Of a stretch of 64,000 nt of DNA, positions 44,501 through 47,416 are shown one piece after another. Position numbers and translations under genes: made by a program. The notes beneath the pieces are model-generated. The model did no database searches. It saw only the letters and a list, made by a program, of their open reading frames with translations, and was not told where the DNA came from. This stretch comes from Microcaldota archaeon (GTDB lineage: Archaea > Micrarchaeota > Micrarchaeia > Micrarchaeales > CABMGC01), in the NCBI GenBank assembly GCA_021792095.1, contig JAJYVH010000001.1, forward strand, positions 161,584 to 225,583, given 5' to 3'. Position 1 is the stretch's first letter, and the number at the start of each line of letters is the position of its first letter.

Positions 44501-44657
44501 GTAAGCACTCCTATATTGTTTGCCATGCCAAGGAATTAAAGGTATAGGGCACGCTGAGTGGCGTATCATGTTATGAAGTAGGGGCATCAGTTGCAAAGCC
44601 AGCCTATACCAAAAGAAATATTAATATGTGAGCGTATAACGTTAGTAAGGCAAGTAA

Positions 44658-44789
44658 ATGGGGAAGATGGACGACCTGGAGATATATGTGGAAAACGGGG
44701 AAGTTAAGGTAGCCTACAAAAGAGACTACAGGATGGGCTATGATGGCTTTGGTTCACACAGCCATGGCTGGGCCTCAAAGACCAAGTAG
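44658..44789 (+). CDS. Candidate RiPP precursor peptide (43 aa, not in ORF track)
   Basis: MGKMDDLEIYVENGEVKVAYKRDYRMGYDGFGSHSHGWASKTK, 20 nt upstream of the rSAM gene; TATA-like AAATATTAATATG upstream. Confidence 0.6.
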   Translation: MGKMDDLEIYVENGEVKVAYKRDYRMGYDGFGSHSHGWASKTK

Positions 44790-44809
44790 CGGGCATCCAT
44801 AGTGGTAGA

Positions 44810-46174
44810 ATGAATTCTCCTTGGCTTAGCGACGCTTATACTCTGGCTGACAATGTACGCGACTTACACCTCGACATAGAGGGCACAAAATTCCATGTGA
44901 TACTGAATCCTGACATAGGCTCGTGGATGGCGCTAACGCATGAGGACCACGTCAGGCTCAAGGAAGGACGACTGAGCAGCGCAGAATGGGACGCGCTATA
45001 CATCCGCAGCTTGGCGAAGAAGATCTCGAATGGCAAGATGAGTACATCCAAATTCCCAAACCCTGCAGAGTTCCCCAGCCTCTACGTGATAAACACGACG
45101 CTGCAGTGCAACCTGCGTTGCAAATATTGCTTTGTTGGCAGCGTGGAGCCCAGTGAGAACATGAGCGATGCCGTAATGCGCACTACTGCAATCCAAGCGC
45201 TCTCGCACCCCGACATAAAGAAAATCATTTTTGAGTTCCAAGGAGGGGAGCCCCTTATGGACTTCAAAGGCATGAAGAGGTTTGTTTCCATAGCCGAAGA
45301 GACCAACAAGGAGTTCGGAAAGGATGTCACATACAGAATCGAAACCAATGGCACACTCATCACGGAAGAAATTGCCAAGTTCCTCAAAGAGAAAAAGTTT
45401 CACATCGGAATCAGCATAGACGGACCCAAGGAGCTTAACGACCTTACTAGAATACACGAAGACGGCAGCGGTTCGTATAATGAGATAATTCACGGCGTCA
45501 GCATACTAAGAAAAAATAACATAGAAATACTGGGCGTTGTATGCACAATCAGCAAATACAACGTAAAGCATCCCAAGGAGATAGTGGATTTTTTCAATGA
45601 TTCTGGATTGAAATCCTTCAAGCCGAGACCTGTAAACATAGCAGGTAGAGAAAAAGATAGCCACACCGCAGCCGAAAACAAAGAATGGTTGGAGGCATAC
45701 AAAGTGATACGTGTAGAATCTGAAAAGCTCGGACTGACGAATGCCTCAGCGAGCATATACGAAGAGAACACATACACCCCTTTTAGGGATTACATGTGCC
45801 TCAGATATCCGTGCGGCGCAGGCAGGGAAGTAGTGTCGATAAACCCCAACGGAGACGTATACCCCTGCGACGGATTTAAGAGCGTAAAAGAATACAAGAT
45901 GGGAAACATACTAGAGGAGAGCATACGCGACATGCTCGAGAAGCCAAAGATACGAGAACTTAGGAACAGATCGTGGAAGGAAAGCGACAAGTGCAATGCG
46001 TGCGCATTCCATGCCATGTGTGGCCCGTGCGCATATTCTACATATGGCGCATTCGGTGATGCACACAGGGAAGACCCCGAATGCAATGCAAGACAGGGAA
46101 TATTCCTGTACCTGATAAAGGACTGGATAAACAAGAACATGCTCACTTCGAGAGAACCTCCATCAACGACCTAA
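44810..46174 (+). CDS. Radical SAM/SPASM peptide maturase
   Basis: CNLRCKYC, FQGGEPLMDF, SPASM cysteines CLRYPCGAG...YPCDG...CNACAFHAMCGPC...EC. Confidence 0.9.
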   Translation: MNSPWLSDAYTLADNVRDLHLDIEGTKFHVILNPDIGSWMALTHEDHVRLKEGRLSSAEWDALYIRSLAKKISNGKMSTSKFPNPAEFPSLYVINTTLQCNLRCKYCFVGSVEPSENMSDAVMRTTAIQALSHPDIKKIIFEFQGGEPLMDFKGMKRFVSIAEETNKEFGKDVTYRIETNGTLITEEIAKFLKEKKFHIGISIDGPKELNDLTRIHEDGSGSYNEIIHGVSILRKNNIEILGVVCTISKYNVKHPKEIVDFFNDSGLKSFKPRPVNIAGREKDSHTAAENKEWLEAYKVIRVESEKLGLTNASASIYEENTYTPFRDYMCLRYPCGAGREVVSINPNGDVYPCDGFKSVKEYKMGNILEESIRDMLEKPKIRELRNRSWKESDKCNACAFHAMCGPCAYSTYGAFGDAHREDPECNARQGIFLYLIKDWINKNMLTSREPPSTT

Positions 46175-46781
46175 CCTGTTTTATGTGATGATCTACGATG
46201 CTTGACAGTAGCACTGTCTTCATACCTATCAGCTTCGCGGGAAGCATGTCCTTAGTCACGTCATCTCCCACCATAACACACTCATTTCCTTTCAGCCCAT
46301 TCTCCTTCAGGATCAGTTCCAATGCATCTACGCTTGGTTTCTCTATACCCGAATCTTGCGCTGTATAAATTTTGCTGAAATATTTCCCTATTTTGTGCCT
46401 TTTGAGCCAAGAATCAACACTTTCCCTTGAAGAGAGGCTGTACAAGAACAAGACATAATGTTTTGCGAGGCGTGGCATAATTAGCATTACCGACTCGCTG
46501 ATATCGTCGCCGCTATGCCTATACGTATCGTACACACGACATATGCGGCGCTTTAGAGAGTCTCTGATGCCAAGCCTATCCAAGGCGCCATACACAATCT
46601 CGCTCATTCCCATCGACGGATTACCCAAGTCGATGCGCTCTATGTCTACTAATATTTTTCTCGCAAGAATGGTTGGGTTGCCTATCCCTGCAGTTTTTAG
46701 TGCTTTCTGCATCGCAGCGAGCTTTATGGGCAAATCGGCGTCCAAGGTCCCGTTAATGTCAAAAATTAGCGCTTTTATCAT
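46143..46781 (-). CDS. HAD-superfamily hydrolase
   Basis: ALIFDINGTLDADLP, LYSLSSRESVDSWLKRH, GIEKPSVDALELIL, CVMVGDDVTKDM. Confidence 0.85.
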   Translation of the reverse strand: MIKALIFDINGTLDADLPIKLAAMQKALKTAGIGNPTILARKILVDIERIDLGNPSMGMSEIVYGALDRLGIRDSLKRRICRVYDTYRHSGDDISESVMLIMPRLAKHYVLFLYSLSSRESVDSWLKRHKIGKYFSKIYTAQDSGIEKPSVDALELILKENGLKGNECVMVGDDVTKDMLPAKLIGMKTVLLSSIVDHHIKQVRSLMEVLSK

Positions 46782-46783
46782 AC

Positions 46784-47416
46784 CTATCTAACCAATTCAA
46801 TAATATCGTCAAAACCCACATCGCTATACTCATAACTGTTTGGAACCATAACTATTCTAATGTATTTGCAATCGATTGCAGAAGCCAAAACAGCATTGCG
46901 ATAGTCTACTTCGTCGCTGATGATTACAACTTCTTTTCCGTTTCTGTTAGTCACATTAAGTACATCTAAAAGAAGAGTGCTGGCGAAATCGATATGTTTC
47001 TCCCTCAAAAGTCTTTTTGCTTCTAAACTGAGTCCTTCTTTGTTCGAAGCCTCAAGACCCGGAGACAAATCTATACGAATGAGTTTGCCATAATCGTTTA
47101 GGTATTCGGACACCTGTGGAACAACTGTGTTTTCTAATACTATGGACTTACTCAGTTCTGGTGCATCTAGTTGGCAGATCAAGGATTTAGTTGGATGTTC
47201 GGATACAGTATCTAAAACGAATATTTCAGAATCGCGCGTAATGTAGAGTCCTGCAAACCTCTTTAGCAATGTAGTTTTCCCAGAATCATGGTTACCTACA
47301 ACTAACACATTTCTATCAATAAACGAGGATAATTCTGGTTGAAAAGGACTAGTAAATGTTTGTATTTTAGTGCTGCTCGAAGTCGGCATAAACAACAGAG
47401 ATATATGGTAAACCAC
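46784..47416 (-). CDS. P-loop NTPase-like protein
   Basis: Walker A-like VVGNHDSGKTTLLKRF; VVIISDEVDY. Confidence 0.6.
   Translation of the reverse strand: MVYHISLLFMPTSSSTKIQTFTSPFQPELSSFIDRNVLVVGNHDSGKTTLLKRFAGLYITRDSEIFVLDTVSEHPTKSLICQLDAPELSKSIVLENTVVPQVSEYLNDYGKLIRIDLSPGLEASNKEGLSLEAKRLLREKHIDFASTLLLDVLNVTNRNGKEVVIISDEVDYRNAVLASAIDCKYIRIVMVPNSYEYSDVGFDDIIELVR

Follow-up and report, generated by a model that had tools for sequence, protein, structure and literature searches.

A short ORF and its adjacent radical SAM/SPASM enzyme in a Micrarchaeota genome: a probable minimal RiPP locus

What does a short open reading frame directly in front of a radical SAM gene encode in a small archaeal genome, and what would the enzyme do to its product? 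Both genes lie in the window studied here, a stretch of 64,000 nucleotides that is part of a single 771,545-base contig of a Microcaldota archaeon. The first-pass annotation had described a 43-aa ORF, located 20 nt before a full SPASM-type radical SAM gene, as a candidate RiPP-type precursor with its maturase. The small ORF (44658-44789, + strand) reads exactly as quoted and the rSAM ORF, starting at 44810 in another frame, begins 20 nt past its stop. The proposed pairing is supported as well, as the pair is conserved together with a core motif at three loci. The best explanation is a minimal RiPP locus, in which a short precursor consisting of leader and core would very probably be modified by the adjacent rSAM/SPASM enzyme.

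The precursor gene (44667..44789, + strand) encodes 40 aa if translation begins at Met4, or 43 aa if it begins at Met1 (44658). Met4 is probably the real start, since a remnant of the gene in a congeneric genome (G004) keeps this ATG, preceded by GGTGGAA, and lacks the first one. The G+C content at the three codon positions of the small ORF (0.50/0.35/0.62) tracks the pattern of the rSAM gene (0.47/0.38/0.58), unlike the upstream DNA, where it is flat (0.42/0.39/0.41). The core motif GYDGFGSHSH (44736..44765, + strand) follows the consensus G[YF]DG[FC]G[STV]HxH that was derived from the three-locus alignment. In the form G[YF]DGxGxHxH, it occurred three times in 1.26 Mb read in six frames, each time directly before an orthologous rSAM gene; this count leaves out loci that were fetched by the pattern and duplicates of the three sites. 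The codon-position signal and the rarity of the core motif thus indicate more than a chance ORF. Curated-model and Pfam searches gave no family match for the small ORF, and the invariant core is described by no curated family among those searched. Further upstream, the TATA-like element AAATATTAATATG (44616..44628, + strand) could, judging by its sequence, serve the precursor-rSAM unit as an archaeal promoter. A regulatory-RNA reading of the upstream DNA was rejected, as its basis, a fold of two sequences, is too thin to carry meaning.

The maturase (44810..46174, + strand) is a radical SAM/SPASM protein of 454 aa with a beta-rich N-terminal domain, according to family models, Pfam, AlphaFold2 and Foldseek. 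Pfam recognised Radical_SAM (E=3e-20) and SPASM (E=4e-14). The annotation as a full SPASM-type enzyme was borne out: the CxxxCxxC motif corresponds to C100, C104 and C107, the SPASM cysteine set is complete, and its residues 335, 353, 395, 398, 404, 407 and 425 are invariant in the alignment with both orthologues. The best Foldseek matches of the AlphaFold2 model (pLDDT 89.8, pTM 0.88) were two peptide-modifying SPASM enzymes: CteB, whose match runs along the model, and anSME, which matches its core. The first ~80 residues of the model are beta-rich with two helices, and this region is predicted to be an RRE-like leader-binding domain. Among curated models, HxsB (TIGR03978) scored best with 221.2 bits at a cut-off of 370 bits. 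Lower scores came from PapB with 180 bits and the anaerobic sulfatase-maturating enzyme with 178 bits, and from the cyclophane models AmcB (114), GrrM/OscB (105) and YhhB (104), all of them below cut-off as well.

The small ORF is conserved upstream of the orthologous rSAM genes at three out of three loci. The pairing thus withstood the refuting condition set by the first-pass annotation, namely a lack of such conservation. Among 371 genomes sampled in the phylum to which a Woesearchaeota locus belongs, one rSAM enzyme (L197) shared 46% identity with that of the window (E=9e-149), while the rest of this sample reached about 33% or less. An alignment-guided contig scan detected another one in a Bacteroidetes MAG (L090), with 43% identity over residues 1-443 (E=1e-123); the other 79 loci among the matches listed beside it showed 32% identity or less. 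The blocks FKPRPVNI, EEN.Y.P.RDY.CLR.PCGA.RE and SINPNGDV.PCDGFK are invariant in all three enzymes. The small ORF at L197, MENKKEEKESCSPQPKEKISFTVKLEQNDSVGFDGCGVHTHK, ends 32 nt before its rSAM gene and the one at L090, MKNNASKDKKNERVEKLKANVISKDGKKKVKFTTKGKFENGYDGCGTHGHQ, 49 nt before. Both upstream ORFs (42-51 aa) carry the same C-terminal motif behind a Lys-rich leader. In all three aligned precursors the core sits at or near the C-terminus and G, Y/F, D, G, G, H and H are kept. Outside a beta-like stretch, the leaders align poorly; the Lys-rich stretch before the core may form a beta strand, judging from its sequence. The acidic leader described for the window peptide is not a uniform feature, as the leaders of the homologues are rich in Lys and Glu. 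At L197 (7020-7090), ~60 bp before the precursor are directly duplicated (CTCTAAGACATAATGGAAAACAA...), resulting in two ATGs in similar context.

The same pair recurs in a second archaeal lineage and in one Bacteroidetes genome; the precursor-enzyme family is therefore real, although small, and apparently undescribed. With its Bacteroidetes member, it is not confined to archaea. Intact precursors are known from these three loci only. Seven other genomes of the genus yielded no orthologue, and across about 300 genomes in the phylum the best matches had 27-32% identity over most of their length. Order and phylum samples of other Bacteroidota contained no further orthologue. Single-sequence scans of genome contigs and viral contigs returned zero relatives, alignment-based scans of viral contigs only one match of 21%, and motif patterns in viral contigs only chance-like matches in short or unrelated frames. 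Tblastn against plasmids and phages yielded only HxsB-like and other SPASM enzymes with <30% identity.

The congener G004 retains DNA that matches window positions 44608-44763 with 71% identity, including the promoter-like stretch, in which the TATA-like element is partly kept (ATATTgATgT). The frame of its precursor remnant is broken by a one-base deletion and both core His codons read Arg; among the changed sense codons, seven are synonymous. Approximately 2.5 kb are gone, comprising the genes for the rSAM enzyme and the HAD hydrolase and the larger part of that for the ATPase, and the DNA past the deletion matches the window from 47279 onwards (ATPase start, tRNA-Ile). The simplest reading of these sequences is that the precursor-enzyme unit was present in the common ancestor and was lost in G004, where the precursor is decaying.

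The genes lost in G004 also have counterparts elsewhere. In the window, a HAD-family hydrolase gene (46143..46781, - strand; Pfam) is convergent with the rSAM gene and overlaps it at the 3' end, followed by a gene for a small P-loop ATPase (46784..47416, - strand), of which G004 keeps a remnant. Homologues of both stand beside the L197 pair, with 33% identity over 222 aa for the hydrolase and 40% over 55 aa for the ATPase. The conserved upstream ORF with its motif, the G004 remnant and the common neighbour genes make the precursor/maturase pair well supported. L197 and L090 each have a C39-like peptidase gene in their vicinity. The two peptidases are homologous (27%, E=1e-18); that of L197 matches PF03412, and that of L090 matches PF09778 at a sub-threshold level. 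An APH-type kinase and a glycosyltransferase are encoded in the L090 neighbourhood as well. In the 64-kb window, no C39-like relative of these peptidases was found, and no transporter was noticed.

In SPASM-RiPP pathways, the leader is bound by the N-terminal domain of the enzyme, SAM is cleaved, hydrogen is abstracted from the core and a bond is formed oxidatively. At this locus, the short ORF would be translated into a leader and a C-terminal core (GYDGFGSHSH...), with the leader binding to the RRE-like N-terminal domain of the enzyme. Cleavage of SAM would then provide the 5'-deoxyadenosyl radical for an oxidative modification of the G[YF]DGxGxHxH core, most likely a side-chain crosslink. 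In other RiPP systems leaders are cut by C39 peptidases; here the leader would subsequently be removed, plausibly by the nearby C39-family peptidase at two of the three loci, and the product might be secreted to fulfil a biological role.

The conserved residues of the core are Gly, Tyr/Phe, Asp and the H-X-H unit, and for this reason a crosslink from imidazole C2 to a C-beta within H-X-H is the best guess by analogy. It is the likeliest single option, albeit a tentative one. Bonds between His C2 and C-beta are known from HaaB (to Ala) and YhhB (to Arg) (PMC11002830). Otherwise, a larger ring could join Tyr, Phe or Asp to a His, and a modification of Asp or Gly or a metal-binding tailoring would be further candidates. 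A three-residue ring on Tyr-Asp-Gly closed at C-beta is impossible because Gly has none.

The first-pass annotation had favoured FxS/WxS triceptide chemistry, in which both Phe-Gly-Ser and Trp-Ala-Ser would form three-residue cyclophanes. The window peptide does contain FGS and WAS, and MscB-type enzymes join C4 of Phe to the C-beta of Ser (PMC11002830). However, FGS is replaced by CGT and CGV in the two orthologues, which lack the WAS tail and any Trp, and the models of cyclophane maturases score far under HxsB. Triceptide chemistry of this type was therefore rejected on the non-conservation of both triplets and is now very improbable. Like the triceptide maturases XncB, OscB and MscB or HaaB, YhhB and YxdB, the window enzyme adjoins a small precursor; it differs from them in its low model scores, in the triplets that are not kept and in Tyr-Asp-Gly, which offers no C-beta at i+2. 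The window H-X-H, invariant in three cores, could mimic the His-containing three-residue motifs that HaaB and YhhB modify (PMC11002830), whereas the HaaB/YhhB-like models score low. Among thioether maturases such as CteB (SCIFF) and PapB is the solved structure nearest to the window enzyme in both sequence and fold (5wgg/5why), with an RRE-like N-terminus, but the window core is devoid of Cys and the model score is below cut-off. The same SPASM fold is found in anaerobic sulfatase-maturating enzymes (4k37), which in contrast do not share the dedicated small precursor, and no sulfatase substrate is known for the window enzyme. This resemblance to a protein-acting enzyme, together with the missing family match of the small ORF, could suggest a chance ORF or regulatory leader beside an enzyme that acts on another protein. 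Such a reading is largely refuted and highly improbable, given a rare motif that is conserved at the same position across two domains of life and the codon-position G+C signal. A metallophore, in which the core would bind metal via H-X-H, Asp and possibly Cys and the rSAM enzyme would tailor the chelating residues, is unlikely, but less so. HxH and Asp are invariant, Cys occurs in two of the three cores, and copper-binding His-crosslinked RiPPs are reported to exist (PMC10206099). On the other hand, no gene for metal transport was noticed around the locus in the window, and the window core does not share the Cys.

The closest contender is a reduced Hxs system, with a divergent HxsB as the enzyme and the 40-aa peptide as a shrunken HxsA bearing one HxH/HxS-like unit. 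TIGR03978 is the best curated model and aligns over nearly the full length of the window enzyme, the CxxC-x5-CxxC SPASM spacing equals that of the HxsB of Candidatus Fermentimicrarchaeum limneticum (G148, same class as the window genome), and the core contains His. Most relatives among the matches listed have a nearby HxS-repeat ORF, including G148, and short HxsA occur in some archaea, for example at L158 with the core GTHSHHVSHSSY. Yet the window enzyme and that of L090 (181.8 bits) stay far below the cut-off, which the G148 control exceeds with 378.4 bits. No HxsC over cut-off was found in the own genome, HxsD is absent at the locus, and the precursor has a single GxDGxGxHxH core with one HSH unit instead of many HxS repeats; L090 shows no HxS-repeat ORF either. 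In a quick unrooted tree with long branches, the window enzyme groups with that of L090, with support, and the two fall outside the HxsB rows. Judged by this tree position and by the own genome without HxsC over cut-off, the window enzyme is HxsB-related, not HxsB, and a reduced Hxs system is rather doubtful. The preferred precursor/maturase reading can be extended to a RiPP class of its own, defined by the G[YF]DGxGxHxH core and present in a Bacteroidetes lineage as well as in DPANN archaea, in which SPASM enzymes off the HxsB line crosslink H-X-H and whose product would be the first of this kind from DPANN; in this full form it is speculative, and on balance we do not expect it to hold. No description of rSAM RiPPs from DPANN or Micrarchaeota was found in the open-licence literature.

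As its class is that of Candidatus Fermentimicrarchaeum limneticum, the window genome belongs to the Micrarchaeota-type DPANN archaea. The genomes of DPANN archaea are tiny, and most of these organisms are thought to be host-dependent. A dedicated modified-peptide locus in a genome of 0.77 Mb suggests that genes are devoted to signalling by peptides, to the handling of metals or to conflict. With a precursor of 40 aa, a single enzyme and a core that does not vary, the family offers a compact testable substrate, and it helps to tell true HxS systems from unlabelled relatives.

Apparent Hxs systems, namely an HxsB-like rSAM gene with a nearby HxS-repeat ORF, are common in DPANN and were seen in Woesearchaeota, Diapherotrites, Aenigmarchaeota and Micrarchaeota (L096, L097, L099/L050, L115, L116, L132, L136, L155, L157). 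Several of the DPANN systems are preceded by two HxsD-like genes. The Ca. Fermentimicrarchaeum locus (L050:5479-16940) comprises two HxsD-like genes, HxsB (378 bits), an HxS-repeat protein and a second SPASM-type enzyme, and continues with a run of small radical SAM-like genes and a DUF362 ferredoxin protein. Short archaeal HxsA-like peptides with few HxS/HxH units are encoded at L158:6385-6615 (GTHSHHVSHSSY) and L110:5932-6411 (HTHAHM...HSSHGSY); they may stand midway from repeat HxsA to a precursor with a single core, as in the window. A Paceibacterota HxsA-like repeat protein (L145:7143-7859) has Cys-containing units (SSCHDSH) and 26 HxS motifs, unlike ordinary HxsA. Finally, a genome of the same order encodes a radical SAM protein with a GNAT acetyltransferase domain fused to its C-terminus (L052:5311-7080, - strand), possibly a bifunctional peptide maturase.
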